DNA of 33,753 nt from Burkholderiales bacterium (GTDB lineage Bacteria; Pseudomonadota; Gammaproteobacteria; Burkholderiales; JAEUOS01), in the NCBI GenBank assembly GCA_947473125.1, contig CANJDH010000051.1, positions 1 through 33,753 on the forward strand. Reading direction: 5' to 3'. Every line of letters begins with the position of its first letter. Within the stretch, counting starts at the first letter, position 1. Shown here piece after piece: positions 10,685-28,810 of the stretch. The position numbers and the translations under genes were made by a program. Below the pieces are notes generated by a model that was given only the letters and a program-made list of their open reading frames with translations, was not told where the DNA came from and did not search any database.

Positions 10685-10740
10685 CCATGCCCCGAAGAAC
10701 CTTGTCCACCAACGGTTTCAGGCGCATTGTCGGGAGCCCC
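10685..10740 (-). repeat. Palindromic repeat, copy A (between RND permease and MATE genes)
   Basis: Read on the minus strand, this 56-base stretch matches copy B in rsmA across the core CTGAAACCGTTGGTGG and the flanks GCTCC-x-GAC-x-ATGC and GGTTCTTC-x-GG-CATGG, with one inserted base and a few substitutions. It forms an imperfect hairpin with arms around ATGC/GCAT and ACC/GGT. The frame open into the MATE gene would read APDNAPETVGGQGSSG, nearly the peptide encoded by copy B. It lies just past the RND permease stop (10746-10748). Confidence 0.8.
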
Positions 10741-10745
10741 CGGAT

Positions 10746-13700
10746 TCAGCCTGCGACCGCGGGAGTGATGCCTGTCGACTTCTTGCCGAACGAACCCAGC
10801 CATTTGGTGAAACGGTCCATGTACAGGTAGATCACCGGGGTCAGATACAGGGTCAGGAACTGCGACACCACCAGGCCGCCGACCACCGCCATGCCGAGCG
10901 GTACGCGCGTCTCACCACCGTCGCCGTAGCCGATCGCCACCGGGAAAATGCCGGCCAGCGCCGCCATGGTGGTCATCATGATCGGGCGGAAGCGGATCAC
11001 GCAGGCCTGGTAAATCGCCTCTGCCGGCGCGGTCCCCTCGCCACGCTCTTTTTCGACCGCGAAATCGATCATCATGATGGCGTTCTTCTTGACGATGCCG
11101 ATCAGCATGATGATGCCAACGAAGGCATAGAGCGACAAATCGATTTTGAACAGGTAGAGGGTCAGCAGGGCACCCATGCCGGCCGAGGGCAGGCCCGACA
11201 AGATCGTCAGCGGGTGGATAAAGCTCTCGTACAAAATGCCGAGCACGATGTAGATCACCAGCACCGCCACCAGCAGCAGCACGCCCATGCCCTGCAGCGA
11301 ATCCTGGAACGCCTGTGCGGTGCCCTGGAAGTAGCCGTTCATCGAAGCCGGCATGCCCATCTCACGCTCGGCGGCGCGGATTCGATTGACGGCGTCGCCC
11401 AGCGCCACGCCTTCGGACAGGTTGAACGAAATCGTCACCGACGGCAGTTGCCCCGAGTGGTTGACCGTGAGCACCTGGTTCTTGCGCGTCACGCGCGCGA
11501 CGGCATCGAGCGGCACCAGCTTGCCCTGGGATGAGCGCACGTAGATCTTCGACAGGGAAGCCGGGTCGTTCTGGAATTCGGGCGCCACTTCCAGGATCAC
11601 CTGGTATTGCGCCGTGGCGCCGTAAATGGTCGACACCTGGCGTGTCGAGAACGAGCTGGTCAGTGCTTCCTGCACCTGACCCACCGTGAGGCCGAGTTGC
11701 GGCAGCTTGTCACGATCGATGTCGAGCGAAACCGTCGGGCTGTTGTTGAACAGGTTGGAGCTGACGTCCTGCAGGCCCTCGATACGGCGAAAGCGCGTCA
11801 GGAACTTGCCGGACCAGTCGTAGAGTTCGTCGAGGTCGCTACCTTGCAGGGTGTATTGGTACTGCGCCGAAGTGAACAGGCCGCCGATGCGGATCGGCGG
11901 CGGATTCTGGAACGATACGCGGATGCCCGGGATGCCCGCCACCTTGCCGCGCAACCGCCCGATGATTTCGGCCGGCTTGGCGCGCCGCTCGCTGGACGGC
12001 TTGAGGCGGATGAACATCGATCCGTTATTGGAAGTGGCGCGCGGCCCACCCGCGCCCACGGTCGAATTGACCGCCGATACATCCGGGTCCTGCGCCACGA
12101 TCTCGGCCACGCGCATCTGGCGCTGCGCCATCGCGCCAAATGAACTGTCCTGCCCGCCTTCGGTAAAGGCCTGGATGAATCCGGTGTCGCCGGAAGGCAG
12201 GAATTCCTTGGGCACCTGGGTGTAGAGCCATGCGGTGGCGCCGAAGGTGCCAAAAAACACCAGCATGACAACGCGGTGGTTGCGCAAGGCCCACTTCAGC
12301 GAGGCGTCGTAGGCATTGAACACGGCGTCGTAGCCGCGCTCGAACAGGTTGAACAAGTAGCCGTGCTTTTCACCCTTGTGCGAGCGTACGTAGCGGCTGC
12401 ACATCATCGGTGTCAGCGTGAGCGAGACGAAGGCCGACACCAGGATCGCCGCGCAGATCGTGACCGCAAACTCGTGCAGCAGGCGGCCGACGATGCCGCT
12501 CATGAACATCACCGGAATGAACACGGCCACCAAAGACAGGGTCATCGAGATGATGGTGAAGCCGATTTCCTTGGATCCCTTCAGCGACGCCTCCAGCGGC
12601 GTCATGCCTTCCTCGATGTGGCGCACGATGTTTTCCAGCATGACGATCGCGTCATCCACCACAAAACCCACCGCGAGCGTCAGCGCCAACAGCGAAAGGT
12701 TGTCCAGGCTGTAGCCGAGTGCCTGCATCAACGCAAACGTGCCGATCACCGATATCGGCAGGGCGGCAGCCGGGATCAGGGTTGCCGACAGGTTGCGCAG
12801 GAACAGGAAGATCACCAGCACCACCAGCGCGGCGGCCAGGATCAGGGTGAACTTGACGTCGGCGATCGCGGCGCGGATCGACAGGGTACGGTCGAAAAAG
12901 ATCTCGATCTTGATCGCTGGCGGCAGCTTGGCCTGGAATGCCGGCAGGATGCGCTTGATCGCGTCGACGGTCTCGACCGTGTTGGTACCGGGTTGCCGGT
13001 AAATCGCCAGCACGATGGCGCGCTTGCCGTTGAACCAGCTGGCCACGCGGGTGTTTTCGACGCTGTCGACCAGGTTGGCCACCGCTTCGAGCTTGAGCGG
13101 TGCGCCGTTGCGATAGACCACCGTCAGGCCGCGGTAGGCGGCCGCCGTTTCGAGCTGGCCATTGGAGCGCACCGCCAGCACCTGGCGCGCGCCTTCCATG
13201 ATGCCGGTCGGCTTGTTGACGTTGCCCTGCACGATGGCCTGCTGCACTTCATCAAGGCCGACGCCGGCGGCGGCCAGCTTGTTCGGGTCGACCTGCACCC
13301 GCACCGCATATTTTTGCGAGCCGAACACATTGACCTGGGCAACCCCCGAGATGGTCGAGAGCCGCTGCGCCAGTTGCGTCTCGGCATATTCATTGACCAC
13401 CGACAGCGGCATGGTCTCGGAGCTGAGCGCGAGGAAGAATATCGGCGCATCGGCCGGGTTGACCTTGCGGAACGAGGGCGGCACCAGCATTTCCGCCGGC
13501 ATGCGGCGCTGCGCCACCGCAAGCGCCGATTGCACGTCCTGCGCCGCGGCGTCGATGTCGCGCGATAGCGCGAACGACAGCGTGATCGAGGTGACGCCCT
13601 GGGCGCTCACCGAATTCATCGCTTCGAGACCGGCGATGGTGGCAAACTGGCCTTGCAGCGGCGTCGCCACCGCAGCGGCCATGGTTTCAGGGGAAGCGCC

Positions 13701-13856
13701 CGGCAGCTGTGCGGTGACCTGGATGGTGGGGAACTCGACGCTCGGCAATTCCGACACCGGCAGGTTGAGGTAGGCGATCACCCCGAACACCACGCACGCC
13801 GCCATCAGCAGCGTGGTCATCACCGGGCGGCGGATGCACAGTTCGGGGAGGTTCAT
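10746..13856 (-). CDS. RND multidrug efflux permease, HAE1 (AcrB/MdtB-MdtC-like) family
   Basis: A 1036-residue proton-driven inner-membrane pump of standard family length. The N-terminus MNLPELCIRRPVMTTLL is typical and precedes the first transmembrane helix. The proton-relay Asp pair is in LALTLAVGFVVDDAIVMLEN (helix 4), and the helix-10 lysine is in GIVKKNAIMMIDFAV. Two large periplasmic loops lie after helices 1 and 7. The start is the ATG at 13856, four bases past the adaptor stop and preceded by AAAGGAT; a longer frame to 13985 overlaps the adaptor and is not supported. Sequence style (PVSELPSVEFPTIQVTAQLP) is nearest to the MdtB/MdtC/MuxB subgroup; substrates are unknown. No outer-membrane factor follows; the factor at 1005-2453 is one possible partner. 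Confidence 0.96.
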   Translation of the reverse strand: MNLPELCIRRPVMTTLLMAACVVFGVIAYLNLPVSELPSVEFPTIQVTAQLPGASPETMAAAVATPLQGQFATIAGLEAMNSVSAQGVTSITLSFALSRDIDAAAQDVQSALAVAQRRMPAEMLVPPSFRKVNPADAPIFFLALSSETMPLSVVNEYAETQLAQRLSTISGVAQVNVFGSQKYAVRVQVDPNKLAAAGVGLDEVQQAIVQGNVNKPTGIMEGARQVLAVRSNGQLETAAAYRGLTVVYRNGAPLKLEAVANLVDSVENTRVASWFNGKRAIVLAIYRQPGTNTVETVDAIKRILPAFQAKLPPAIKIEIFFDRTLSIRAAIADVKFTLILAAALVVLVIFLFLRNLSATLIPAAALPISVIGTFALMQALGYSLDNLSLLALTLAVGFVVDDAIVMLENIVRHIEEGMTPLEASLKGSKEIGFTIISMTLSLVAVFIPVMFMSGIVGRLLHEFAVTICAAILVSAFVSLTLTPMMCSRYVRSHKGEKHGYLFNLFERGYDAVFNAYDASLKWALRNHRVVMLVFFGTFGATAWLYTQVPKEFLPSGDTGFIQAFTEGGQDSSFGAMAQRQMRVAEIVAQDPDVSAVNSTVGAGGPRATSNNGSMFIRLKPSSERRAKPAEIIGRLRGKVAGIPGIRVSFQNPPPIRIGGLFTSAQYQYTLQGSDLDELYDWSGKFLTRFRRIEGLQDVSSNLFNNSPTVSLDIDRDKLPQLGLTVGQVQEALTSSFSTRQVSTIYGATAQYQVILEVAPEFQNDPASLSKIYVRSSQGKLVPLDAVARVTRKNQVLTVNHSGQLPSVTISFNLSEGVALGDAVNRIRAAEREMGMPASMNGYFQGTAQAFQDSLQGMGVLLLVAVLVIYIVLGILYESFIHPLTILSGLPSAGMGALLTLYLFKIDLSLYAFVGIIMLIGIVKKNAIMMIDFAVEKERGEGTAPAEAIYQACVIRFRPIMMTTMAALAGIFPVAIGYGDGGETRVPLGMAVVGGLVVSQFLTLYLTPVIYLYMDRFTKWLGSFGKKSTGITPAVAG

Positions 13857-13860
13857 CGCG

Positions 13861-15141
13861 TCATCCTTTCGCCGCTGCGGGTGGTTTCGGAGCGTCTTTT
13901 GGCGCACCATCTTTCGCGGCTCCATCCTTGCCGGCTTTGCCACCGCCTTCTTTGGAGGCATCGCCCTTGCCGGATGCACCACCACCGCCGGACGCCGTGC
14001 GCACTTCGTATTTCGCCCCGGGTGTGAGGCGTAACTGTCCGTCGGTGATCACCTTTTCACCGGGTTTGAGGCCCTTCTCCACGATCAGCAACTGGCGGTC
14101 GGAGGGGATGGTTTGCACCATGCGCAACTCGACCGTGTTGTCCGGTTTGGCGACGTAGACAAAGTTGCCGTTCGGTCCGGCCTGCAATGCCTCGGACGGG
14201 ATCAGCAATGCGCCGGGCAGGTTGCGCACCGTCATCGCCACTTCGACAAATTGGCCGGGCGTGAGCTTTTCGTCGGCGTTGTCGAGCCGCGCCTTGAGCA
14301 AGATGGTGCCGGTGGCGGCGTCGACGGTGTTGTCGATGAAAGACAATTCACCCGTCGATCCGGTGCCGGCAGCACCCGGCGTGCGCACGTCGACCTTGAG
14401 CTTGCCCGAAGCGCTGTCGCGGCTGATTTCCTTCAACTGGCTTTCCGGCAGGGAAAACGTGACATAGAGCGGATTGACCTGGTTGATCACCACCAGCGGC
14501 GTGTCGTTGGCTTTGACGCTGCCGCCGGGAAACGCCAGCACCGCGCCGGCAATGCCGTTCATCGGCGCGGCCATCACGGTGTAGGACAGATTGACCTTGG
14601 CGAGGTCGAGTGCAGCAAGGTCGGCATTCACGGTGGCTTCGAGGGTTTGCACCGTCGCCTTGAATCCCTCCAGCGTGGCTGCTGAAATGAAACCCTTGCC
14701 GAGCAGGTCGGTCTGCCGCGAGAGATCGGATTTGGCCTTGTCAAGTTGGGCGCGGTCGCGTGCCAGATTGGCCACGCCCTGCTCGACCTGGGCGCGCAGG
14801 GCACGGTCGTCGAGCGTCACCATCGGCTGGCCCTTTTTGACCTGTTGCCCGGCCCTGTAGTGCACGTTGAGGATCTGGCCGTCGACGCGAGCGCGCATGG
14901 TCACGGTGGAGAAGGCTTCGGTGCGTCCGGCCACATTGATTTTCAGGGGCACGTCGCGCTGGTCCACCACGGCAATCGTCACCGGCGCACCGCGCTGCGC
15001 GGCACCGCCGGCCTTGCCGGCATCACCCTTGGCCGGCAACGCGGCATTGGCCGCCTGGGTCTGGCGCTGCTGGTAGTACACACCGGCACCTATCGCCAGC
15101 GCCACGAACACTATTGCCACAACGGTGCTTCGACTGCTCAT
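13861..15141 (-). CDS. RND efflux periplasmic adaptor (MdtA/AcrA-like)
   Basis: The ATG at 15141 gives 426 residues: a short cytosolic Ser/Arg start, one N-terminal membrane anchor (VVAIVFVALAIGAGVYY), a linker, then the lipoyl/hairpin/lipoyl order (RARVDGQILNVHYRAGQQVK, a coiled hairpin, VMAAPMNGIAGAVLAFPGGS) and the beta-barrel domain (VNPLYVTFSLPESQLKEI). AAAGG lies about 11 bases upstream of this ATG. An ATG at 15195 would add 18 residues, but it sits inside the 18-bp palindrome that carries the probable -10. The last 45 or so residues form an unusual Gly/Lys/Ala/Asp-rich low-complexity tail. The stop is four bases from the permease start, so both are made together. The adaptor links the pump to an outer-membrane channel. 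Confidence 0.92.
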   Translation of the reverse strand: MSSRSTVVAIVFVALAIGAGVYYQQRQTQAANAALPAKGDAGKAGGAAQRGAPVTIAVVDQRDVPLKINVAGRTEAFSTVTMRARVDGQILNVHYRAGQQVKKGQPMVTLDDRALRAQVEQGVANLARDRAQLDKAKSDLSRQTDLLGKGFISAATLEGFKATVQTLEATVNADLAALDLAKVNLSYTVMAAPMNGIAGAVLAFPGGSVKANDTPLVVINQVNPLYVTFSLPESQLKEISRDSASGKLKVDVRTPGAAGTGSTGELSFIDNTVDAATGTILLKARLDNADEKLTPGQFVEVAMTVRNLPGALLIPSEALQAGPNGNFVYVAKPDNTVELRMVQTIPSDRQLLIVEKGLKPGEKVITDGQLRLTPGAKYEVRTASGGGGASGKGDASKEGGGKAGKDGAAKDGAPKDAPKPPAAAKG

Positions 15142-15172
15142 GGACGCGGCTGCCTTTATAGACTCGGTAGAC

Positions 15173-15206
15173 TCGGAATGGGTCCGGGGGTTCATTATAA
15201 TGAACC
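15173..15206. promoter_or_regulatory. Divergent promoter/operator region with an 18-bp perfect palindrome
   Basis: GGTTCATTATAATGAACC (15189-15206) is a perfect palindrome between rsmA and the RND operon. Its centre reads TATAAT on both strands (plus 15196-15201, minus 15199-15194), so each strand has a consensus -10. On the plus strand TCGGAA (15173-15178) lies 17 bases upstream as a weak -35 for rsmA. On the minus strand no good -35 is visible. A palindrome overlapping an efflux promoter suggests a dimeric repressor site, but no regulator gene is adjacent. Confidence 0.55.
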
Positions 15207-15233
15207 TAATTAATCAAGCGCTTAACAACCCTG

Positions 15234-16064
15234 TTGCAACGCACACACACCCCGCGCAAACGATTTGGCCAGCATTTCCTGACCGACGCGGGGGTGATCG
15301 ACGCCATCGTCGCGGCGATCCATCCGCAGCAGGACGACCTGATGGTCGAAATCGGCCCCGGGCTCGGCGCCCTGACCGGTCCGGTGCTGCAAAAACTGCG
15401 CCACCTGCACGCCGTCGAAATCGATCGTGACGTCATCGCGCGCCTGCACAAGCGCTTTGTCCCGGAACGCCTCACGATCCACCAGGGCGACGCCCTGTCG
15501 TTCGACTTCGGCAACCTGGCCGCTCCTGACGATGCCTCTGAAACCGTTGGTGGTGGCGGTTCTTCAGGCATGGCCCGGAACCTGCGCGTGATCGGCAACC
15601 TGCCCTACAACATCTCAACGCCGCTGCTGTTCCACCTCGCACAATTTGCCGAACGCATCATCGACTGCCACTTCATGCTGCAAAAAGAGGTGGTCGAGCG
15701 CATGGTGTCGGCGCCGGGCCGGAAGGATTTCGGCCGCCTCTCGGTGATGCTGCAATATCGTTTCGAGATGGAGCTGGTGCTCGATGTGCCGCCTGAGGCG
15801 TTCGACCCTCCGCCCAAAGTCGACTCGGCGGTGGTGCGCATGGTCCCCAAGCCCGCCTGCGCGCGCAACGCGCACGATGAGAAATCACTGGGCGAACTGG
15901 TGACGCAGGCATTCGGCCAGCGCCGCAAGACGCTGCGCAATACGCTCAAAGGCAGGGTCACGGATGCGCAGCTGCAAGCGGCGGGCATCGACCCGGGCGC
16001 GCGCGCCGAGGAAATCGACGTGGCGCGCTACGTGGCGCTGGCAAACCTGATCGGGCCAACCTGA
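15234..16064 (+). CDS. rsmA: 16S rRNA dimethyladenosine transferase RsmA/KsgA with a repeat-encoded insertion
   Basis: A SAM-dependent enzyme that dimethylates two adjacent adenosines near the 3' end of 16S rRNA during small-subunit assembly. Landmarks are [10 protein letters not shown] at the N-terminus, the SAM-binding motif [11 protein letters not shown], the acidic residue of [13 protein letters not shown], and the catalytic motif NLPYNIS. The C-terminal domain contains [14 protein letters not shown]. The start is a TTG (15234), as no ATG is in frame; there is no clear ribosome-binding site. Length is 276 residues. Residues about 97-113, just before the catalytic NLPY, are encoded by copy B of the palindromic repeat and have no counterpart in E. 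coli KsgA as I recall it, where LAEKMGQPLRV leads directly to NLPY. The frame and all motifs remain intact, so the protein is probably functional. Confidence 0.96.
15522..15573 (+). repeat. Palindromic repeat, copy B (in frame within rsmA)
   Basis: This is the cleanest copy. ATGCCT (15532-15537) pairs with AGGCAT (15566-15571), and AACCG (15542-15546) with CGGTT (15557-15561), leaving a four-base internal bulge on each side and a ten-base loop TTGGTGGTGG. The flank starts GCTCCTGAC and ends CATGG. Translated in the rsmA frame it gives [17 protein letters not shown]. The core CTGAAACCGTTGGTGG is identical in copy A. Confidence 0.85.
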
Positions 16065-16080
16065 GCGCGCCAGGCGCTCA
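16062..16080. terminator. Inverted repeat shared by the convergent stops of rsmA and gloA
   Basis: TGAGCGC (16062-16068) and GCGCTCA (16074-16080) are a perfect 7-bp inverted repeat with a five-base loop. The rsmA TGA is the first three bases and the gloA TGA (minus strand) is the last three, so one hairpin carries both stops. No U-tract is seen. A bidirectional terminator is the likely role. Confidence 0.5.
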
Positions 16081-16464
16081 AGCGCTTTCGATCAACTCGA
16101 TCTTGTAGCCATCAGGATCGGTGACGAACGCAATCACGGTGGTGCCGCCTTTGACCGGGCCGGCCTCGCGCGTGACGTTGCCGCCCGCGGCCTTCACCTG
16201 CGCACAGGTCTTGTAGGCATCATCAACGCCGACGGCAATGTGGCCGAAGGCCGACCCGAGGTCGTATTTGTCGACGCCGTAGTTATAGGTCAGCTCGATC
16301 ACCGAGGTGTTGTCTTCGGTGTCGTAGCCGACAAACGCGAGCGAATATTTCTGGTCGGGGCGATCGGTCTGGCGCAGCAGCTTCATGCCCATGACCTTGG
16401 TGTAGAAATCGATCGAGCGCTGCAGCTCGCCGACGCGCAGCATGGTGTGGAGCATTCGTGGCAT
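16078..16464 (-). CDS. gloA: Lactoylglutathione lyase (glyoxalase I)
   Basis: A 128-residue enzyme that isomerises the methylglyoxal-glutathione hemithioacetal to S-lactoylglutathione in the cytosol. The compact two-module glyoxalase fold is complete, with the expected metal ligands: His in MLHTMLRVG, Glu in [10 protein letters not shown], His in FGHIAVGV and Glu in YKIELIE. Family-typical stretches include [16 protein letters not shown] and [13 protein letters not shown]. The short length and the gap between modules suggest the Ni-type bacterial form. It is the last gene of the operon that starts at ilvE, 18 bases after the metallopeptidase gene. Confidence 0.96.
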
Positions 16465-16482
16465 GGTGATTCCCCTGTGCGA

Positions 16483-17313: not shown

Positions 17314-17334
17314 GGCGTCAGGCCGGGTGGCGCA

Positions 17335-18081: not shown

Positions 18082-18091
18082 CAGGAGAACG

Positions 18092-18640: not shown

Positions 18641-18653
18641 GCCTTAGTCAGCC

Positions 18654-18860
18654 CTAGTGCCCGTGCTGCGCTGCACCGCCCTTGAGCCGGTAGATCGTGC
18701 TGCAGTAGGGGCAGGCTGCCTCGCCGGTGGTCGCGACATCGAGGAACACCTTGGGGTGCTGGTTCCACAAGGCCATGGTCTTGTTCGGGCAAAACGCCGG
18801 CAGGTCCTGCGCGTCGAGCATGACAACGGGCATTTCCTGGGTGGCCGATCCGGTGCTCAT
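18654..18860 (-). CDS. Small CHCC-type zinc-finger protein (NDUFS6-like domain)
   Basis: A 68-residue protein with the zf-CHCC pattern: C24 in PAFCPNK, H35 in WNQHPKVFLDV, and C50-x2-C53 in ACPYCSTIYRL. The domain also occurs in mitochondrial complex I subunit NDUFS6; in betaproteobacteria this free-standing gene is typically beside ilvE, as here. Its biochemical role is not known. It starts nine bases after the ilvE stop and ends 13 before gmhB, so it belongs to the same transcript. Confidence 0.9.
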   Translation of the reverse strand: MSTGSATQEMPVVMLDAQDLPAFCPNKTMALWNQHPKVFLDVATTGEAACPYCSTIYRLKGGAAQHGH

Positions 18861-18869
18861 GTCGGGCTC

Positions 18870-19859: not shown

Positions 19860-19972
19860 CTTGATCTCTCCGAGTGAATGCATTGATCTATTGAAGGTGC
19901 AATTTTAGCGCGGATTGCGCGCAGCGACGCTCTACAATCGGGGCAACCCCTGCTTCGACGCAACCCGACCCC

Positions 19973-20767
19973 ATGTTTGAAGCCTGCCCGAAGTGCGGCC
20001 ACGCGCCGCTGCCGGAAAAACAGGAATTCCCGGCCGCATGCCCGGCCTGCAGCCTGGTGCTGGCGAAGTTCAAGGCTGTCGCCGCGCGCAAAGACCTCGA
20101 GATTACCCAGCAATTGGCCGACGATGCGCCAGCCGCCGCCACTGTGGCTGGCCGGGTCACCGGCATGCTGTCGCATGTGCCGCCACGCGTGGCGCGCCTC
20201 AACTGGCAGGGACGCATTGCACTGCTGGTGCTGTTCTCGCTCTGGAGCATCTGGATCTTCAAGGACTACAGCATCATCGAGGGCCACCCCGGCAGCCGCT
20301 TCCTGCACCTCGTGCTCACACCCTTTCATGAAGCCGGGCACTACGCGATCTTCCGCTGGTTCGGGCAATTCATCATGATCCTCGGCGGCACGCTCGGCCA
20401 GCACCTGATGCCAATCGTGCTCGGCGGCGCACTGTTGTTCAAACGCCGCGACCCGTTCGGTGCGGCACTGTTCTTCTGGCTGCTCGGCTTTTCGGTGGCC
20501 GACATGGGCATCTACATGTACGACGCCTTCGACCCGCAGTTGATGCTGCTCGACGGCCGCACCGGCGCCGACAGCGACGGACACGATTGGCAGAATATCT
20601 TCGGCGACCTGGGCCTGCTCAAGCGTGCGCACGCCATCGGCATCTGTTCGGGCTGGCTGGGTCGCGCCCTGATGCTTGTGGGCCTAGCCTGGGCTGGATG
20701 GATGCTATGGCTGCAACACGCCCGCCTCTCCGATTCTTTGTTCGCTGAAGACAACGATGGGCAGTAG
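19973..20767 (+). CDS. Zinc-ribbon membrane protein with HEAGH (possible M50-like metalloprotease)
   Basis: A 264-residue protein I cannot assign to a named family. Residues 5-26 form a rubredoxin-like zinc ribbon (C5PKC8 and C23PAC26). A linker follows, then about five hydrophobic segments starting at residue 81. HEAGH (119-123) lies within a hydrophobic stretch (LTPFHEAGHYAIFRWFG), the geometry of membrane-embedded site-2-type proteases; H204/D205 in GHDWQNIF or D177 could supply a third ligand, but no NPDG-type motif is present. A candidate -10 TACAAT lies at 19933-19938; no ribosome-binding site is obvious before the ATG. The stop overlaps the next gene's start by 11 bases, so the two products probably act together. 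Confidence 0.8.
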   Translation: MFEACPKCGHAPLPEKQEFPAACPACSLVLAKFKAVAARKDLEITQQLADDAPAAATVAGRVTGMLSHVPPRVARLNWQGRIALLVLFSLWSIWIFKDYSIIEGHPGSRFLHLVLTPFHEAGHYAIFRWFGQFIMILGGTLGQHLMPIVLGGALLFKRRDPFGAALFFWLLGFSVADMGIYMYDAFDPQLMLLDGRTGADSDGHDWQNIFGDLGLLKRAHAIGICSGWLGRALMLVGLAWAGWMLWLQHARLSDSLFAEDNDGQ

Positions 20768-21713
20768 CCGCACTGCATGGCTGCTGGCCAGCGCATTGCT
20801 CGGTGCGCAAGGTGTCGGGGCGCACGCCCAAGGCGCTGCGCGCTGGTGGCCCGGGTTCATCGATACCCGCGGCAAGGCCTTCCTGGAATTGCCAGATGAC
20901 GCCAGACTTTGCGCACTGGCGCGCGACGCCGTACGCAAAGCCGCAGTTGCATCCGGCCGCGTCGTGGTGCTTCCGCACAAGGCCGAGGCCCTGGTGCCTG
21001 CCGGCGCGCGGCTGGTATTTGGCGTGGTCGATGCGGCCAACAGCGCCTCGGAGCGGGTCTTCACCCGCATCGTCACGATTGCGCGCGGCAGCGACAAGGG
21101 TGCGTGCGCCTATCTTGCCGAAGCCGGCGCCGAGGCCGCCGGTGCGGCTATTGAAGAAGACCGCAGCGCGATCGGCGTTTACCCGCCGCGCCGCGTGTCG
21201 GTCAAAACGCCCGATGAAAGCTGGAGAAGCTACGGACTGGCCAATACCGGCGGCACCGCGACCGATGCGCGCTTTGCACCGCCCGGGGACGCGCCTGCTG
21301 TATGGCGCGCGCGCATCGTGCCCTTGCTCGGGGAACCGGCGGAACTGTTCGGCCATGCATTTCACGCAGTGCTCGCGCCGGGCCGACCCCCGACCGCGCT
21401 GGCTCTGATCGGCGCCATCGCCAACAGTGCGGCGCCGGGCCCGACTTACAATACCGTCAACCTGATCGTAGCCGCGACGGCCGAAGGTGTGGCGGCAGGA
21501 ACGTTGTATCAGTCCGGCCCATCGGGCGGCATCGAGCGCAACCGCAGCGGCAGTTTTGCCGCGCAAGTGATGCTGGTCGCCGACCTCGACGGCGACGGCG
21601 TCGATGAAGTGATACTGTCTGCGCGCTATTACGCCGGCGGCAACCTGAAAGTGCTCAAATTCGCCAACGGCAAATTCACCGAAGTGCGCCAGACCGCGTA
21701 TGAAGGCGAATGA
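20757..21713 (+). CDS. Secreted protein of unknown function with a VCBS/FG-GAP-like C-terminal motif
   Basis: A 318-residue protein with a signal peptide ending near GAHAQ (about residue 25). The mature part has no family I can name; a region rich in Ala/Gly with two conserved-looking Trp (ARWWPGFIDTRGKAFLELP) opens it. Near the C-terminus ADLDGDGVDEVILSARYYAG is a calcium-binding-type loop as in FG-GAP/VCBS repeats, followed by GGNLKVLKFANGKF. Such motifs occur in surface or periplasmic beta-propeller proteins, but here only one repeat is clear. The ATG lies within the last codons of the HEAGH membrane protein gene, suggesting translational coupling and a shared envelope role. Confidence 0.72.
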   Translation: MGSSRTAWLLASALLGAQGVGAHAQGAARWWPGFIDTRGKAFLELPDDARLCALARDAVRKAAVASGRVVVLPHKAEALVPAGARLVFGVVDAANSASERVFTRIVTIARGSDKGACAYLAEAGAEAAGAAIEEDRSAIGVYPPRRVSVKTPDESWRSYGLANTGGTATDARFAPPGDAPAVWRARIVPLLGEPAELFGHAFHAVLAPGRPPTALALIGAIANSAAPGPTYNTVNLIVAATAEGVAAGTLYQSGPSGGIERNRSGSFAAQVMLVADLDGDGVDEVILSARYYAGGNLKVLKFANGKFTEVRQTAYEGE

Positions 21714-21777
21714 GGCGCCCCTCCAAGACTCGTTCCCACCAAGGCTTTCCAGCCAATTTCACCCGAAAGAACTCACC

Positions 21778-22980
21778 GTGACCGACGCAGTGCAGCAAGC
21801 CGACGACCCCAAACGCAACATCTTCCTGCTGGTCGCGTGCCAGGCGCTGCTGTTCACCAACAACGTCTCGATGATCGCGATCAACGGCCTCGCGGGCCTG
21901 GCGCTGGCGCCGAATGCGGCGATGGCCACCGTGCCGGTGACCTCCTACGTGATCGGCTCGGCGCTCGCCTCGGCGCCGATCGCCAAGATGATGCGGCGCT
22001 ACGGGCGCCGTGTCGGCTTTTCGGTCGGCACCCTGTTCGGCATGCTCGGCGTGCTGGTGGCGGCGCTTGGCGCGTACCACAAGATGTTCTATCTTTTGTG
22101 CCTGGGCACGATGCTGGTCGGGGTCTATAACGCCTGCGGCCAGTTGTACCGCTTCGCCGCGACCGAGGTGTCGCCGCCACAGTGGAAGGAGCGCGCGATT
22201 TCCTGGGTGCTCGCCGGCGGCGTGATCGGCGGCGTGATCGGCCCCAATCTCACCAAATATTCGATCGACGCGCTGTCCGTCAGCTTCGCCGGCACCTACG
22301 CGTCGCTGGTGGTGTTTGCGGTGCTGTCGCTGATCGTGATCCAGTTCGTGCGCTTTCCGGCGCCGACCGTGTCCGAGCAAAAGGGCAGCGGCCGCCCGTT
22401 GCGCGAAATCATGGCGCAGCCGGTGTTCATCGTCGCGGCGCTCGGTGCAGTAGTCGGCTACGGCGTGATGAACCTGTTGATGACGGCAACGCCGATCGCA
22501 ATGGTGAAAATTTGCCAGCATCCGTTTTCCGCCGCGGCGCTGGTGCTCGAATGGCATGTGATCGGCATGTTCGCACCGTCGTTTTTCACCGGCCACCTGA
22601 TCCGGCGCTTCGGTGTGCTCACCATCATGTTCGTAGGCAGCGTGCTGATGTTCGTGTGCGTCGGCGTGGCCTTGGCCGGTGTCGACATCATGAATTTCCT
22701 GATCGCCCTGTTCACGCTCGGCGTCGGCTGGAACTTCCTGTTCATCGGCGGCACCACCCTGCTCACCGAAACCTACCGCCCGGAAGAAAAGAACAAGGCC
22801 CAGGGCGCCAACGACTTCCTGATTTTCATGACGATGGCGCTGTCCTCGTTTTCGTCCGGCGCGCTGGTCACCACGCGCGGCTGGGAGCTGCTCAACTACG
22901 GCTCGCTGCCGTTCCTGGTGCTGGTGGCCTGTGCGATCCTGTGGCTCGCCGCGCGGCGCCGGCGGCCCGCGGCGGCGTGA
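21778..22980 (+). CDS. Major facilitator superfamily transporter
   Basis: An inner-membrane protein of 400 residues with twelve hydrophobic segments. I choose the GTG at 21778 (VTDAVQQADDPKRN), which has AAAGAA a short distance upstream; an in-frame ATG at 21700 lies inside the previous gene. The loop between helices 2 and 3 has the MFS-type basic motif (KMMRRYGRRVGF), and the central loop separates two six-helix halves. Substrate cannot be told from the sequence. Its stop TGA overlaps the azlC GTG start, so it is probably co-transcribed with the AzlCD branched-chain amino acid exporter, perhaps as a second exporter. Confidence 0.88.
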   Translation: MTDAVQQADDPKRNIFLLVACQALLFTNNVSMIAINGLAGLALAPNAAMATVPVTSYVIGSALASAPIAKMMRRYGRRVGFSVGTLFGMLGVLVAALGAYHKMFYLLCLGTMLVGVYNACGQLYRFAATEVSPPQWKERAISWVLAGGVIGGVIGPNLTKYSIDALSVSFAGTYASLVVFAVLSLIVIQFVRFPAPTVSEQKGSGRPLREIMAQPVFIVAALGAVVGYGVMNLLMTATPIAMVKICQHPFSAAALVLEWHVIGMFAPSFFTGHLIRRFGVLTIMFVGSVLMFVCVGVALAGVDIMNFLIALFTLGVGWNFLFIGGTTLLTETYRPEEKNKAQGANDFLIFMTMALSSFSSGALVTTRGWELLNYGSLPFLVLVACAILWLAARRRRPAAA

Positions 22981-23696
22981 CCGTCAGGGAGGACAACGAA
23001 ACCGACACCCCGCGCAGCGCGCTGCTCGCGGGAGCCCGGTCGGTAGCGCCGTTTCTGGCCGGCACCATCCCCTTCGGCATGGTCACTGGCATTGCCACCA
23101 AGGCCGCCGGCCTGTCGGCCGAAGCGGCGATTGCCATGACGCTCATGGTGTTTGCCGGCACCGCGCAAATATCGGCGCTGCCGCTGCTCACGGCGGGTGC
23201 GCCGGTGCTGGTAATCCTGCTCACCGCGTTCATCGTCAATCTGCGCTTCGTGATCTACAGCGCCACCGTGGCCCCTTACTTCAAGCACCTGCCGTTTCGT
23301 TGGCGCCTGCTGCTAGGCTACTTTGTCACCGACACCGGCTTTGCCATGTTCATGCGCCGCATCCAGGACAAGCCCGATTGGGCGTTGCGCCACTGGTTCT
23401 TTCTGGGCGGCGGCATGATCCTCGCAGTCGTGTGGTGCCTGTCGGCCGTATTGGGCGTGCTGGCCGGCACCCAGGTGCCGCCGGCCTGGCGCCTGGAGTT
23501 TGCTGCCACCCTGGGCATCCTCGCGCTGGTGGCGCCGGTGGTGCGTTCGCGCGGCGAGTTCGCCGCGGCACTGGTCGGCGGCGGCGTGGCGCTGGCTGCC
23601 TCGCCCATGCCGATGAAGCTGGGCCTGGTGCTGGGCGCGGTGGCCGGGATTGTCAGCGGCGCACTGGTTGACCATTTCGCGAAGAGGCATGCATGA
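22977..23696 (+). CDS. azlC: AzlC family branched-chain amino acid export permease, large subunit
   Basis: A 239-residue membrane protein of the AzlC/YgaZ family. The GTG at 22977 overlaps the MFS stop (GTGA) and gives VTVREDNETD before the conserved ARSVAPFLAGTIPFGMVTG. Other landmarks are AMTLMVFAGTAQISALPLL and TAFIVNLRFVIYSATVAPYF, both typical. The large subunit works with the small AzlD subunit to export branched-chain amino acids or analogues. Frames extending upstream of 22977 run through the MFS gene and are shadows. The stop overlaps azlD by four bases. Confidence 0.93.
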   Translation: MTVREDNETDTPRSALLAGARSVAPFLAGTIPFGMVTGIATKAAGLSAEAAIAMTLMVFAGTAQISALPLLTAGAPVLVILLTAFIVNLRFVIYSATVAPYFKHLPFRWRLLLGYFVTDTGFAMFMRRIQDKPDWALRHWFFLGGGMILAVVWCLSAVLGVLAGTQVPPAWRLEFAATLGILALVAPVVRSRGEFAAALVGGGVALAASPMPMKLGLVLGAVAGIVSGALVDHFAKRHA

Positions 23697-24025
23697 GCAT
23701 CGGCGGTTGGTACCTGTGGCTGGTGGTGGCCGGGATGGCGCTGGTGACCATCGTCAACCGCGCCACGCTGATCGTCTTCGCGGGGCGCTTCAACCTGCCA
23801 CCGATCGTGCAGAACTCGCTGCGCTACGCGCCCGCGGCAGCGCTCGCCGCGATCGCCGTACCCGAACTGTTCATCACCAACGGTGCCATCGATGTGTCGA
23901 TCCACAACGCCAAACTGATTGCCGGCATGGTCAGTTTCGGGGTCGCCCTGGTGTGGCGCAGCACCATCCTGGCGATTGTCGGCGGCATGCTGGTGCTGCA
24001 CGCGCTGGAGTGGCTGCTGAAATAG
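23693..24025 (+). CDS. azlD: AzlD family branched-chain amino acid export permease, small subunit
   Basis: A 110-residue, highly hydrophobic partner of AzlC with three to four membrane segments. Typical elements are VVAGMALVTIVNRATLIVFA near the start, FNLPPIVQNSLRYAPAAALA in the middle and the C-terminal pair of helices ending HALEWLLK. The ATG overlaps the azlC TGA (ATGA), the normal arrangement for the pair. It ends at the TAG in a hairpin shared with the convergent cupin gene. Confidence 0.93.
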   Translation: MSIGGWYLWLVVAGMALVTIVNRATLIVFAGRFNLPPIVQNSLRYAPAAALAAIAVPELFITNGAIDVSIHNAKLIAGMVSFGVALVWRSTILAIVGGMLVLHALEWLLK

Positions 24026-24046
24026 CGCCTCTCCAAGGTGGCGCTA
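24023..24046. terminator. Inverted repeat shared by the convergent stops of azlD and the cupin gene
   Basis: TAGCGCC (24023-24029) and GGCGCTA (24040-24046) are a perfect 7-bp inverted repeat with a ten-base loop. The azlD TAG is the first three bases and the cupin TAG on the minus strand is the last three. No U-tract follows. A bidirectional terminator is the simplest reading. Confidence 0.5.
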
Positions 24047-24340
24047 GCGCAGCTCGATTTCCACAAACGCGATCGGGTGCGCCGAACCGTTCACCACGTT
24101 GTGCTCCACCCCGGCCTTGCGCGCATACGACTGCCCGGCGACCAGCGCAAACGGCTGGCTGGTGTCGCCGTTTTCAATCAGCAGCGTGCCGTCAACCACG
24201 GGTACCACCACATAGTCCATCTCATGGCGGTGCCAGCCGGTTTCGGCCCCCGGGGCGAACGACCATCTGGTCACGCGCAGGCGTTCGCTATCGACCTGCA
24301 CTTCGGGCGTGGCTTGGGGGCGCTGGGGTGGGGTGGTCAT
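24044..24340 (-). CDS. Small single-domain cupin protein
   Basis: A 98-residue beta-barrel protein of the cupin superfamily. The first cupin motif gives GWHRHEMDYVVVPVVDGTL with the metal-binding His pair, and the second gives KAGVEHNVVNGSAHP with a third His. The enzymatic role cannot be inferred; small cupins include dioxygenases, isomerases and sugar- or metal-binding proteins. AGAGGAG lies about 11 bases before the ATG. It is transcribed divergently from the GMC oxidoreductase gene. Confidence 0.85.
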   Translation of the reverse strand: MTTPPQRPQATPEVQVDSERLRVTRWSFAPGAETGWHRHEMDYVVVPVVDGTLLIENGDTSQPFALVAGQSYARKAGVEHNVVNGSAHPIAFVEIELR

Positions 24341-24391
24341 GGCGGGATGAACTCCTCTGGAGTGAATGCGTCAATGAAGGGTGGAGGAAAG

Positions 24392-24397
24392 ACTATA
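24392..24397 (-). promoter_or_regulatory. Candidate -10 element for the cupin gene
   Basis: TATAGT on the minus strand lies about 45 bases upstream of the AGAGGAG site and ATG of the cupin gene, in the divergent gap with the GMC gene. The same -10 hexamer precedes the Rieske and response-regulator genes. No convincing -35 is visible 16-18 bases upstream, so confidence is low. Confidence 0.3.
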
Positions 24398-24456
24398 GCG
24401 CTCGCGCGCGACTGAAGCACAAGGGGGAATGGCCAGCTGGAATACTATTTGTCTCC

Positions 24457-26073
24457 ATGCGTCAAGAATCGTACGACTACATCGTCATTGGTGCCGGCAC
24501 CGCCGGTTGCGTGGTGGCCGGGCGCCTTTCTGAGCGCGGCAAATACAGCGTCTGCGTGCTTGAAGCCGGGCCGCCTGATCGCAACCCCTTCATCCACATT
24601 CCGGCGGGCGTGCTCTACACCTTGCGCAACCCGGACATCAACTGGATGTACCCCGGTGTTGCCAGCCCCGGCTTGAACGGGCGCGCCATCACCCACGCAC
24701 GCGGCAAGACCCTCGGCGGTTCCGGTTCGATCAACGGCCACATCTACAACCGCGGCCAGCGTAGCGATTTTGACGGCTGGGCCGATGCCGGGAACCGCGG
24801 CTGGGGCTATGACGACGTGCTGCCGTACTTCATGAAAAGTGAGCGCAAAATCGGCGCAGCCGACGCCGGCTATCACGGCAGCGACGGCCCTTTCACGGTC
24901 ACCGACATTGAGGAGGCCGACCCGCTGTGTGATGCCTTCATGCGCGGCGCCCAGTCGCTCGGCATTCCGCACAACCCCGATTACAACGGTCGCGCGCAAG
25001 AAGGCATCGCCTACGCGCAGCGCAGCGTGTTTCGCGGCCGCCGGGTCGGCCCGGCGCGCGCGTTTCTGTACCCGGCAATGCAGCGCGGCAACACGCGCGT
25101 GATCACCAATGCCCGGGTTGAGCGCATCCTGGTTGAAGACAAAGAGGCCAGGGGTGTTTGCTTCAAAGTCGGCGGCCGCGACACGCCAAGCCGCGTGGTC
25201 AGGGCCCGTCGCGAGGTGATCCTCAGCGCTGGCGCGATCGCCTCACCGCAGATTTTGCAGCTTTCCGGTATCGGCAGTGCTGCGCATCTGCAATCGATCG
25301 GCGCGCCGGTCGTTCACAACTTGCCTGGCGTCGGCAAGAACTTTCGCGATCACTACGCGGTGCGCTCGGTGGTGCGCATTCAGGACATGGCCACCATCAA
25401 TGGCCGTGTGCGCGGCCTGCCGCTGGTGCGCGAAGTACTCAACTACGCCTTGACGCGGCGCGGCGCCCTGGCGCTCACGCCCACGCTGGTGTACTGCTTC
25501 TGGAAATCCGCCGAGAACCTGGAGCACGGCGACATCCAGCTCACCTTCACGCCGGCGAGTTATCCCGACGGGGTGCAATCGGGCCTGGACCGCTTTCCTG
25601 GAGCGACGGTGGCATGCTGGCAGCAACGGCCAATCAGCGCCGGGTACGTGCGCGCCACCTCGATTGACCCATTCGTGCCGCCCGAGATTCAAGGCAATTA
25701 TTTGGGCGAGGAAGAAGACCACCGCGTCCTGCTCGCCGCGATGCGCTGGAGCCGCCGCATCCTGCACAGCGAACCGTTCAAACCCTACGTGGCCGAGGAA
25801 CGCTGGCCCGGCGCAGACCGACAGACCGATGAAGAGTTGCTCGACCATGCCCGGCGCACTGGCAACACCGCCTATCACCCGATGGGCACATGCCGCATGG
25901 GTGCCGCGTCCCGGACGGACTCGGTCGTGGACGACCAATTGCGGGTGCACGGCGTTGCGCGGCTGCGCATCGCCGACGCCTCCATCATGCCGATGATTCC
26001 ATCTGCCAACCTCAATGCCAGCATCTTGATGATCGGCGAAAAAGCAGCGGACATGATCGCTGCAGCGGCCTAA
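24457..26073 (+). CDS. GMC family FAD-dependent oxidoreductase (choline/alcohol dehydrogenase-like)
   Basis: A 538-residue flavoprotein. The dinucleotide fold is at the N-terminus (YIVIGAGTAGCVVAGRLSE), followed by the GMC signatures HARGKTLGGSGSINGHIY and LSAGAIASPQILQLSGIG. The catalytic region has the His in YHPMGTCRMG and the Asn of SANLNASILMIGEKAADMI. Relatives oxidise choline, alcohols, polyethylene glycol or sugars; the sequence does not decide the substrate, and no betaine aldehyde dehydrogenase or BetI-like regulator is adjacent. The ATG at 24457 starts directly at the FAD-fold; the longer frame from 23650 runs through azlC/azlD. No ribosome-binding site is evident; TACTAT (24443-24448) could be a -10 of a near-leaderless transcript. 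Confidence 0.92.
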   Translation: MRQESYDYIVIGAGTAGCVVAGRLSERGKYSVCVLEAGPPDRNPFIHIPAGVLYTLRNPDINWMYPGVASPGLNGRAITHARGKTLGGSGSINGHIYNRGQRSDFDGWADAGNRGWGYDDVLPYFMKSERKIGAADAGYHGSDGPFTVTDIEEADPLCDAFMRGAQSLGIPHNPDYNGRAQEGIAYAQRSVFRGRRVGPARAFLYPAMQRGNTRVITNARVERILVEDKEARGVCFKVGGRDTPSRVVRARREVILSAGAIASPQILQLSGIGSAAHLQSIGAPVVHNLPGVGKNFRDHYAVRSVVRIQDMATINGRVRGLPLVREVLNYALTRRGALALTPTLVYCFWKSAENLEHGDIQLTFTPASYPDGVQSGLDRFPGATVACWQQRPISAGYVRATSIDPFVPPEIQGNYLGEEEDHRVLLAAMRWSRRILHSEPFKPYVAEERWPGADRQTDEELLDHARRTGNTAYHPMGTCRMGAASRTDSVVDDQLRVHGVARLRIADASIMPMIPSANLNASILMIGEKAADMIAAAA

Positions 26074-26167
26074 GCCCGGTTCAAGCAGCGAGGGGGGTCT
26101 GGAAACGGGGGCGGAACGTGCTGCAGGCGGCTCCAATTGCCATCAACCGACCGATGCGCCCATCGCG
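26074..26167. other. Convergent intergenic gap between GMC oxidoreductase and glnE
   Basis: This 94-base gap separates the convergent stops. Unlike the three other convergent junctions, I see no strong stem-loop here; only a weak 6-bp pairing, CGCTGC (26058-26063) with GCAGCG (26085-26090), across a 21-base loop. No ORF or repeat is evident. Confidence 0.4.
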
Positions 26168-28810
26168 CTAGGTTATGCGCGCTCCCACCACCGCAGCCCA
26201 AAGTACCAGCACGGCCGCCACCTCTTCTGCCACCGCCTCCTGCGGCAGCCGCGCATATTCCTGATTGTTGAGGCGCAGCGCATGCTGGTGCTTGCGGTAG
26301 GTGCGGTAGGCATCGGCCGCGCCCTGCGCTACCGCCTTGTCGATCAGGCCGGTCTCGCCAGCACGCAACAACAGCGCAATGTTGCCCTTGTTGTCGATCA
26401 ACGGCGCATGGGTGCGCGCATGCTCGAGCACCAGCGCCTGCACGCAGAATTCGATGTCGACCATGCCGCCGGCGTCGTGCTTCAAGTCGAACAATTGGGA
26501 TTTATTGGGGTGGCCGTCGTGCATTTTCTGGCGCATCGCGTTGACTTCTTCGATCAGCTTGGCGTGCTCGCGCGGCAGGGTGAGGATGTGTTTGCGCACT
26601 TCTTCGAACGCGGCGCCGATGGCGGCATCGCCCGCACAGAAGCGTGCGCGTGTGAGGGCCTGGTGTTCCCAAAGCCAGGCGCGTTTTTCCTGATAGTCGC
26701 GAAAGGCGACCAGGCTGGTGACGAGCAATCCGCTGTCGCCGTCGGGGCGCAGGCGGGTGTCGGTTTCGAACAGGCGGCCTGCGGTGGTGCGGGTTTCCAT
26801 GAAGGTGAGCAGGCGCTGCGCGAGGCGGGCGTAGATTTCGGCCGCGCGTTCATGCGTGTCGTCGTAGATGAAGACGAGGTCTAGGTCTGAGGCGTAGCCG
26901 AGTTCCTTGCCGCCCAGTTTGCCGTAGGCGATGATGGTGAATTGCGGTACCGGCTGGTGCTTTTCCTTCAACGCAAACCAGCATGCGTCGAGCGCCAGTT
27001 GCAGGGTGCGGTCGGCCAGCTCCGAAAGATGGTCGGCCAGCACTTCGACCGTGAGCAAGCCCTGCAGGTCTTGTGCGAGCAGCCGAAACGCCTGCGCCTG
27101 GTGGGCTTCGCGCAGGACATTCATTTGCGCTTCGAGGTCGCCCCGCTGGGCCTGCAATTGCGCGCTGGCAAACGCGCTCCACGCCGCAAAATCGGGGGCT
27201 GCATTGAGCATGCGCTCGTCGAGCAGTTCGTCGAGCAGGATCGGGTGCGTGGTGAGGTATTGCGCGGCCCATTCGGACGCAGCCAGCAACTTGGCGAGGC
27301 GCAGCAGCGCCGCGCGCGACTGGATCAGCAGCGCGAGGTAGCTTGCGCGTGAGGCGATGGCTTCGAGGAAATGGAGCAGGCGCTTCAAGGCAACGTCCGG
27401 CGCGTCGGTGGCGCGCGCCGCATCCACCGCGTGCGGCAGCAGTTGCACGAAGCGTTCGCGACTGGCGCCGGCAAGGCGCTTGATCTTGCTGCCTTCCTGC
27501 GTTGCCCTGATCAGGCGATTCAATTCGTCACTGTCCGCAAAGCCCTGTCCCACAAGGGTTTCAGAAGCATGCTCTCCAGAGCCGTTGGTGGGAGCGGGTT
27601 CCACGGCATCGCCCAAAATAAAATCGAAGTGGCGGCTGACGTTGGCGCGCTGCGCGTCGAGCACCCCCATGAACGCGGGCCAGTCCGCGCAGCCCATCGC
27701 CACGGCCAGGCGCGCGCGCGCTTCGTCGTGCTGCGGCAGCGTGTGGGTCTGCTGGTCTTCGGCATATTGCAGGCGGTGTTCGACGCGACGCAGGAAGTCG
27801 TAGGCTTCGCACAACTGGTCGACCACATCGCGCGGCAACAGGCCGAGGTCGGCCAGGGTGATGAGCGTGGGCACGGTGGGCCGCGAGCGCAGCCGCGCCT
27901 CGCGCCCACCGCGAATCATCTGCAGCGCCTGGGCCACGAACTCGATCTCGCGAATGCCGCCGGGGCCGAGCTTGACGTGGTCGGACAGGTCGCGGCGTGC
28001 TACCTCGCGGCGAATCTCGGCGTGCAGCCCCTTGAGCGACTCGACTGCGCCGAAATCGAGATAACGGCGAAACACAAACGGCGTCACCGTCTTCATCAAC
28101 CCGTCGCCACAATCACCAGTCAGGACCCGCGCCTTGATCCAGGCATAGCGCTCCCAGTCGCGGCCGTGGGCAACGAAGTAGTTTTCGAGCGCGTCGAAAC
28201 TCATCGCCAGCGGCCCGTCTCCCCAGGGGCGCAGGCGCATGTCGACGCGAAACACGTAGCCGTTGGCGTCGACATTCGACAGGCGTTGGATCAGGCGTTT
28301 TCCCAGTTCGTTGAAGTACTGCTGGTTAGACACTGCGACGCTGCCCCCCCGTGTGGCGCCCTCTTCGGGGTAGAGAAAGATCAGGTCGATGTCTGACGAC
28401 ACATTGAGCTCGCCGCCGCCGAGCTTGCCCATGCCAACCACGTGCAGGCGCTGCACCGCGCCGGTTTCGCCGTACGGCACCCCGAAACGCGGGGCAATCT
28501 CGGCCTCGATGACGGCGATGCTGGCCGCGATGGTTTCTTCGGCCAGCTCGGTCATTGCCTGCGTCACTTCGCCAAGTGACGCCAGGCCCGCCAAATCACG
28601 CTCCATCACGGTGAGGAGCACGTCGCGGCGCAGCTCGCGCATGGTGCGGTCAAGCGTCGCTTCGGTGGCTGTGGCGAGGCGTTGCGTCATCACCTCACGC
28701 CGAAAGGGCGCCAGCGCCCAAGCCGCCAGCCGCGGCGCCCAATCAGGGGTCGCCGCGAGGCGGGAGCGGGCATAAGCGCTGAAAGCGGCGCAGCAGGGTT
28801 CTGAAGTCAT
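26168..28810 (-). CDS. glnE: Bifunctional glutamine synthetase adenylyltransferase/adenylyl-removing enzyme
   Basis: An 880-residue cytosolic regulator that adds AMP to, and removes it from, glutamine synthetase in response to PII and glutamine. Both nucleotidyltransferase domains are intact: the N-terminal removing domain with GMGKLGGGELNVSSDIDLIF and the C-terminal transferase domain with YGKLGGKELGYASDLDLVFI. A PII/GlnB-responsive helical region separates them. It is shorter at the N-terminus than E. coli GlnE (about 946 residues) but begins in a plausible helical region. Residues about 401-426, in the linker after the first domain (around PTNGSGEHASETLVGQGFAD), are encoded by copy C of the palindromic repeat. 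It diverges from the yhdP-like gene across an 81-base gap. Confidence 0.96.
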   Translation of the reverse strand: MTSEPCCAAFSAYARSRLAATPDWAPRLAAWALAPFRREVMTQRLATATEATLDRTMRELRRDVLLTVMERDLAGLASLGEVTQAMTELAEETIAASIAVIEAEIAPRFGVPYGETGAVQRLHVVGMGKLGGGELNVSSDIDLIFLYPEEGATRGGSVAVSNQQYFNELGKRLIQRLSNVDANGYVFRVDMRLRPWGDGPLAMSFDALENYFVAHGRDWERYAWIKARVLTGDCGDGLMKTVTPFVFRRYLDFGAVESLKGLHAEIRREVARRDLSDHVKLGPGGIREIEFVAQALQMIRGGREARLRSRPTVPTLITLADLGLLPRDVVDQLCEAYDFLRRVEHRLQYAEDQQTHTLPQHDEARARLAVAMGCADWPAFMGVLDAQRANVSRHFDFILGDAVEPAPTNGSGEHASETLVGQGFADSDELNRLIRATQEGSKIKRLAGASRERFVQLLPHAVDAARATDAPDVALKRLLHFLEAIASRASYLALLIQSRAALLRLAKLLAASEWAAQYLTTHPILLDELLDERMLNAAPDFAAWSAFASAQLQAQRGDLEAQMNVLREAHQAQAFRLLAQDLQGLLTVEVLADHLSELADRTLQLALDACWFALKEKHQPVPQFTIIAYGKLGGKELGYASDLDLVFIYDDTHERAAEIYARLAQRLLTFMETRTTAGRLFETDTRLRPDGDSGLLVTSLVAFRDYQEKRAWLWEHQALTRARFCAGDAAIGAAFEEVRKHILTLPREHAKLIEEVNAMRQKMHDGHPNKSQLFDLKHDAGGMVDIEFCVQALVLEHARTHAPLIDNKGNIALLLRAGETGLIDKAVAQGAADAYRTYRKHQHALRLNNQEYARLPQEAVAEEVAAVLVLWAAVVGARIT
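27534..27608. repeat. Palindromic repeat, copy C: head-to-head pair within glnE
   Basis: Two diverged units meet at the self-complementary AGCATGCT (27566-27573). The minus-strand unit reads from there CTGAAACCCTTGTGGGACAG, like the core of copies A and B; the plus-strand unit reads CCGTTGGTGGGAGCGGGTTC then ends GGCAT, also as in copy B. The minus unit is in the glnE frame and encodes HASETLVGQGF, matching the [10 protein letters not shown] of copy B. The larger unit pair forms an imperfect palindrome of about 60 bases. Confidence 0.7.

Follow-up and report, generated by a model that had tools for sequence, protein, structure and literature searches.

As far as a thin literature search goes, DNA uptake signals have been described in two families of bacteria. 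Uptake signal sequences (USS), those of the Pasteurellaceae, are in Haemophilus not insertions, gaps having been found in 24% of the alignments of USS-bearing proteins and most of these outside the core, according to the excerpted account of Redfield et al. (2006, PMC1626085), and graded mismatch loads have been described for uptake signals (PMC1939737, in excerpt). Recombination has been argued to help establish the DNA uptake sequences (DUS) of the Neisseriaceae also (PMC2397512, in excerpt). Repetitive extragenic palindromes (REPs) are, in the excerpted text of PMC3733652, associated with REP-associated tyrosine transposases (RAYTs), occur inside genes in several species and, in most families of the GTAG type, fall into subfamilies with alternative complementary stems. 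Rickettsia palindromic elements (RPEs) are translated in-frame insertions of about 150 bp in genes of unrelated proteins (PMC10969869, in excerpt). Here we compare with these systems a repeated, dyad-like DNA motif of about 40 bp found in a stretch of 33,753 nucleotides from a Burkholderiales bacterium (contig CANJDH010000051.1 of assembly GCA_947473125.1; the whole stretch is called the window below), where an initial reading of the letters alone, here termed the sequence-only reading, had proposed a mobile palindrome that encodes a similar peptide each time. We found hundreds of copies in the host genome, and the motif is probably a DNA recognition motif carried into genes by substitution, not a mobile palindrome.

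Searching the host genome (4,877,126 bases in 209 contigs, 97.15% complete) with the 16-base core of the motif, CTGAAACC-N-TTGGTGG, gave 291 matches at up to two mismatches compared with 9 for a reversed control, and 152 compared with 0 at up to one mismatch; the 139 copies with exactly two mismatches represent a graded mismatch load. A profile iterated from a systematic sample (the window and 59 stretches of 20 kb, 1,213,753 bases in all) detected 120 copies at 12 bits or more and 113 at 14 bits or more, compared with 1 and 0, respectively, in reversed-DNA decoys. Extrapolated from the sample to the whole genome, this corresponds to 446–482 copies, and either count far exceeds the threshold of about ten genomic copies that had been set beforehand.

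The same searches were extended to 40 relatives, 4 from the host's family and 36 from its order, with none from its genus. Core matches at up to one mismatch numbered 0–3 in each relative and 22 in sum, compared with 10 for the control, with none in the four same-family genomes. The best profile score in 579 kb of the relatives' DNA was 10.8 bits, and a further eleven stretches, amounting to about 210 kb of relatives' DNA, had no profile match at E ≤ 1. Given these counts in true and reversed DNA and the low maximum in the relatives, the strong copies are not due to chance. Other lineages as carriers of the motif were also rejected: a pattern of 19 fixed bases, matched exactly, occurred at 3 isolated places in genome_contigs, from which the host's own records had possibly been left out, the one pattern searched in viral_contigs gave 0 matches and plasmid sequences gave 3, at E about 4. 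A literature search by the letters of the motif returned unrelated matches only, and one for uptake sequences in connection with metagenome-assembled genomes returned no papers. As far as searched, the motif family is large, high-copy and private to the host lineage. A k-mer search for a related motif in 329 kb of the sister genus G001 found different repeats only. These stretches hold a repeated palindrome of their own, AAGTA-N6-TACTT, unrelated in sequence to the motif (11 sites in the 329 kb, most inside longer palindromes), as well as a TGAGG tandem array.

Whether copies inside genes represent insertions was analyzed for 21 of the 36 motif-bearing genes of the sample, with a clear result for 17; the others were RNase R (two copies) and QueG, in both of which the motif falls beyond the aligned part, and ROK kinase and acyl-CoA dehydrogenase (ambiguous). 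There was no insertion at the motif in 14 of the 17 genes, a difference of 3 amino acids in 1 and an insertion of unit length in 2. In MurE, Tex, the HIBADH-type dehydrogenase, the M48 peptidase, gamma-glutamyltranspeptidase (Ggt) and FrnE/DsbA, the motif was ungapped in the best alignment with solved structures. Comparison with G001 revealed no insertion in the alpha/beta hydrolase, the DUF2944 protein, the Mur ligase or the AMP-binding enzyme (the latter only 36% identical), nor was any found in UreF, GlcE or the RsmI-like protein on comparison with relatives. The UreF loop is variable, being of equal length in two family members, 3 amino acids longer in one and 2–5 shorter in four order-level relatives. 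GlnE had no insertion when aligned with its counterparts at 27 loci from 26 relatives and was, pairwise, 1–2 amino acids shorter than two family members. Judging from these alignments, both modes exist and substitution prevails in the genes tested. The insertion into coding sequence that had been supposed initially was thus borne out for RsmA and GlcF and contradicted in 14 of the 17 testable genes, so that a mobile palindrome does not describe the general mode.

At seven of the sites lacking an insertion, comparison with the relatives' DNA gave 87 base differences toward the consensus, 19 away from it and 35 in neither direction, with a protein identity of 43 of 100 residues in the motif and 334 of 541 in the flanks. 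Since these sites had been chosen for matching the motif, the extent of the rewrite counts as evidence but its sign does not. The host DNA scored 21.3 to 37.9 bits at these sites and that of the relatives −34.6 to 6.9 bits. Some sites do start from protein segments of a similar type, such as LKPLIDKL in the RsmI-like protein of G001, as would be expected if the motif were ordinary conserved protein sequence. The sequence-only reading had named the same peptides at the same places in distant relatives as the finding that would point that way; the protein segments are indeed ancestral, but the DNA is drawn to the motif only in the host lineage. For copies above about 12 bits, chance, conserved protein sequence and an assembly artefact are refuted by these scores together with the decoy counts and the relatives' maximum, and as accounts of the whole family they are hardly credible.

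The rewrites of about 30 nt at unchanged length and the unit-length insertions would both be covered if sites were overwritten by a single-stranded donor of endogenous origin, or if copies converted one another ectopically, whereby a patch of 40 nt would anneal to similar sites and either replace an equal length or insert a unit. No such donor is known, however, and the copies differ mutually at about 44% of positions and retain scattered non-consensus bases, and we consider this explanation very improbable.

The consensus is about AATGCCCTGAAACCGTTGGTGGGAGCGGTTCTC-GG, the unit being about 40 bp, with 31.4 bits of profile information across positions −2 to 30. Columns rich in A/T lie near −6, 3–5, 13, 23–25, 33–34 and 45, which is suggestive of a recurrence about every 10 bp. 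Compensatory arm changes were sought in the 111 copies at 16 bits or more, and no diagonal of pairs stood out: arm complementarity was close to that expected from column composition, and the summed z along the dyad was 3.1, 2.5 and 1.7 over 19–21 pairs, compared with −8.1 to 5.0 along other diagonals. Mean mutual information was 0.051, compared with 0.043 in permutations; some information is common to positions −6 and 33/34, with the largest excesses found in neighbouring columns, chiefly in an AGC/CAA variant at 17–19. The dyad resides mainly in the consensus, which also holds for many protein-binding sites, and the palindrome initially read from the hairpin arms was not clearly supported. 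An RNA or hairpin element was rejected on the same lack of clear covariation and because the window matched no Rfam family at the gathering thresholds. The mutual information of columns 17–19 also delineates two block variants at positions 16–20, GGGAGCGG and GGACAAGG, which may correspond to two dialects or to different modes of binding.

Eleven pairs of copies lay less than 150 bp apart. Nine of these are arranged head to tail with a spacing of 40 or 41 bp, and the other two are inverted, tail to tail, at 69 bp. The tandem units had a mean identity of 0.572, compared with 0.563 (sd 0.080) for random pairs, and recent duplication therefore does not explain the spacing of 40/41 bp, whereas in-phase binding would. 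Counts per 20 kb were Poisson-like (variance 1.89, mean 1.85), with no regular spacing. One explanation for these features is that the motif is bound by an abundant protein with an architectural, segregation or regulatory role and is kept by selection at each site, with the phasing of about four helical turns reflecting side-by-side binding. Such a site would account for the profile equally well as an uptake signal would, in view of its column-wise nature without clear arm covariation, the tandem and tail-to-tail pairs and the seemingly recurrent A/T-rich columns. It does not readily explain, however, why about 31 bits are conserved where, by our own arithmetic, about 14 would locate about 450 sites; the alteration of codons that are conserved, as in the genes for MurE and Tex among others, would demand a strong benefit per site, and the Poisson-like distribution also speaks against it. 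We regard this explanation as somewhat unlikely.

Gene calling on the sample gave 1105 genes and a coding share of 88.6%. Of the 120 copies, 60 lay between genes, 23 at the edges of genes and 37 within 36 genes, compared with about 106 expected within genes from the coding share. The intergenic and edge copies scoring at least 14 bits numbered 79; 25 of them were in convergent gaps, which by their length should hold 18% (p = 0.003), and 9 in divergent gaps, which should hold 27% (p = 0.001). Inside genes, the sense orientation was used by 22 of 34 copies (p = 0.12). Considering the 32 genic copies at 16 bits or more, 17 were read in the sense frame giving LKPLVGA, 4 in the sense frame giving SETVGG and 11 in antisense (4, 4 and 3 over the three frames), with none in the sense frame in which the consensus contains a TGA stop; one copy of 15.5 bits uses that frame without a stop. 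Neither the similar peptide each time nor the consistent frame of the sequence-only reading could thus be maintained for the sample. One of the copies in the SETVGG frame lies in a glycine-rich repetitive region of an open frame of 3404 codons (L074:2-10213), which looks like a large surface protein. The strand of the copies had no clear skew with replication, with 45 versus 55 by stretch and 48 versus 65 by local GC skew, and a replication-oriented signal was not supported. Of 50 pairs of neighbouring copies more than 150 bp apart, 33 shared their orientation (p = 0.033; sample stretches L032–L091). The core TTGGTGG is close to Chi of Escherichia coli, but the host motif is constrained over 40 bp and had no clear strand skew.

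The enrichment near the 3′ ends of genes and in convergent gaps would also fit a small mobile palindrome in a derived form, REP-like or otherwise, whose transposase was lost or lies elsewhere and whose uninserted copies arose by insertion followed by a matching deletion. We take GTGGGAGCGG to resemble Pseudomonas REPs. Like REPs and bacterial interspersed mosaic elements (BIMEs), which measure 20–40 bp, the motif has a dyad symmetry, albeit imperfect, downstream and convergent positions, copies paired head to tail or inverted, and some genic copies, two of them as unit-length insertions, and one intergenic copy lies in a lengthened gap; genic REPs are likewise reported in the excerpted text of PMC3733652. 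In contrast to most GTAG REP families as that excerpt describes them, the motif lacks clear compensatory arm changes, a possible weak excess in the outer pairs apart, and most genic copies tested are uninserted. A single gene for a Y1 transposase (Y1_Tnp) was found in the host genome, scoring 64 bits where the NCBIfam cut-off for RAYT is 80. Within 17.8 kb around it, the nearest profile match above 12 bits was 6.9 kb away, with a doubtful match of 11.2 bits at 0.8 kb. A RAYT-driven REP was accordingly rejected, and the RAYT-like transposase that had been anticipated near a copy was not encountered; for a REP-like origin in the wider sense we find the evidence unfavourable and such an origin unlikely. 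An inverted repeat, AAATGGGGTCTGACCCCATTT, lies just past the 3′ end of the Y1 gene (L031:1159-1866), at about 1113–1133. RPEs share with the motif that they occur in unrelated protein genes and are translated, but in the host an in-frame insertion was seen in only 2 of 17 genes, and the copies, some 450 in number and about 40 bp long, lie mainly between genes.

Copy number, lineage restriction, ungapped genic copies, lack of clear covariation and the phasing at 40/41 bp together argue for a recognition motif under a pull at the DNA level. Such a motif would accumulate in genes mainly by base substitution in existing sequence and sometimes by gain of a whole unit, would be bound as double-stranded DNA by a protein able to bind in phased arrays, and would spread by drive or selection acting on the DNA. 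As sequence-biased DNA uptake is the best-known cause of this pattern, we tentatively favour a lineage-specific sequence of the USS/DUS kind, maintained by an uptake-type drive: a surface receptor would prefer motif-bearing DNA during natural transformation, and recombination of the imported pieces would carry motif alleles into the chromosome. With USS and DUS the motif shares hundreds of copies on both strands and in several frames; its genic copies, where tested, mostly lack an insertion, as do those of USS (PMC1626085). It also shares with them a core flanked by A/T-rich segments (PMC7811141), dyad pairing, as for the DUS variants of Simonsiella (PMC3630211), and an intergenic excess, 65% of USS lying in open reading frames while about 86% of the genome is coding (PMC2346458). 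That it represents a third, independent self-recognition signal in bacterial DNA besides USS and DUS, with a dyad-like unit of 40 bp, arrays phased at 40/41 bp and a spread by substitution into essential genes plus unit gain, is a possibility that we advance with somewhat greater reserve.

With regard to the competence machinery, a whole-protein search located end pieces of comEC at two contig ends (G000:C170:1-1026 and G000:C151:3-473; L193 and L194), the middle being unassembled, and a gene for DprA was present. The negative Pfam result for ComEC was thus due to an assembly gap, and a loss of competence was rejected. Beside the AGXT gene, where G001 and the relative G003 carry ComEC, the host has another gene, presumably FabI-like. 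Since ComEC and DprA are widespread, their presence gives the uptake reading modest support.

The left arm AATGCC-CTGAA (positions −6 to 4) recalls the Neisseria AT-DUS, ATGCCGTCTGAA, and all DUS dialects share a CTG core (PMC3630211). Membership of the DUS was nevertheless rejected, as the resemblance was not borne out by a fixed CTG core: CCTGAA was present in 24 of the 111 copies, and the 10-mer DUS occurred once in the sample and its reverse twice.

Several observations weigh against an uptake signal borne by substitution. The positions corresponding to the DUS CTG are variable (C 73%, T 50%, G 68% in the 111 copies), the constrained stretch of about 31 bits over 34 positions is longer than the 9–12 bp cores of known uptake signals, and the density, about one copy per 10 kb, is roughly a tenth of that of the USS in Haemophilus influenzae, at about one per 1 kb. 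The copies between genes or at their edges, 83 of 120, are many for a sample of which about 89% is coding. No receptor was identified, ComEC being visible only as the two end pieces, and ComEC was found in 10 of the 10 other genomes searched, each with 0 or 1 motif match. The insertion in RsmA amounts to 14 amino acids (42 nt) compared with two family members and to 13 and 15 compared with the other two, and is absent from all 28 aligned relatives; GlcF has 13 amino acids more than each of three family members, in a loop that carries additional residues in one order-level relative too; and the motif region of the IorAB-like protein is 3 amino acids longer than in G001. At 21715..21760, the one intergenic copy comparable with a relative's syntenic gap, conserved parts of the flanking genes lie about 64 bp farther apart than in the relative G004. 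Such gains are not what pure point mutation gives. The possible weak excess in outer arm pairs (for example −5 with 33, 0.33 versus 0.26), the variability of the CTG and the 11.2-bit match beside the Y1 gene, moreover, slightly weaken the uptake reading and slightly strengthen that of a REP.

Within the window, the repeat was confirmed at all three loci named by the sequence-only reading, the core being exact at 10706-10721(−) and 15538-15553(+) and having two mismatches at 27549-27564(−). By profile there are four clear copies, one of which had been overlooked. The copy with the highest score, 32.5 bits at 10686..10731(−), is non-coding and lies between an RND efflux gene (10746-13856, −; ACR_tran domain) and a MATE gene (9289-10641, −, by gene calling; MatE domain). 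It had been read in the frame open into the MATE gene, but as the RND gene ends at 10746 and the called MATE gene starts at 10641 it is intergenic, and the first MatE domain begins only at residue 85 of the longer open reading frame. The copy of 28.9 bits at 15529..15573(+) lies inside rsmA (16S rRNA dimethyladenosine transferase; 15234..16064, +; RrnaAD, 221 bits), where it forms the 14-residue insertion in a loop of variable length; the overlooked copy, of 27.8 bits at 21715..21760(−), is between a gene at 20757-21713(+) and an MFS transporter gene at 21778-22980(+). Inside glnE (glutamine synthetase adenylyltransferase; 26168..28690, −; GlnE 411 bits, GlnD_UR_UTase 140 bits), the copy of 17.4 bits at 27572..27610(+) is antisense to the gene and gives the peptide DAVEPAPTNGSGE in a variable linker without an insertion. 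The minus-strand unit described there earlier, HASETLVGQG, is only a weak partial copy at 27553..27573(−), head to head with the former, and its score of 8.1 bits is below the maximum found in the relatives' DNA. The in-frame positions in rsmA and glnE were as first described.

If the uptake reading is true, this would be a third kind of uptake signal, with a long motif, whereby the debate on drive versus benefit could be put to test in another lineage, and the host motif would show how a signal at the DNA level can rewrite conserved proteins. If the cause is not uptake, the motif would instead be bound, at some 450 sites across the genome, by a protein not yet known, with a demand that overrides the conservation of protein sequence.

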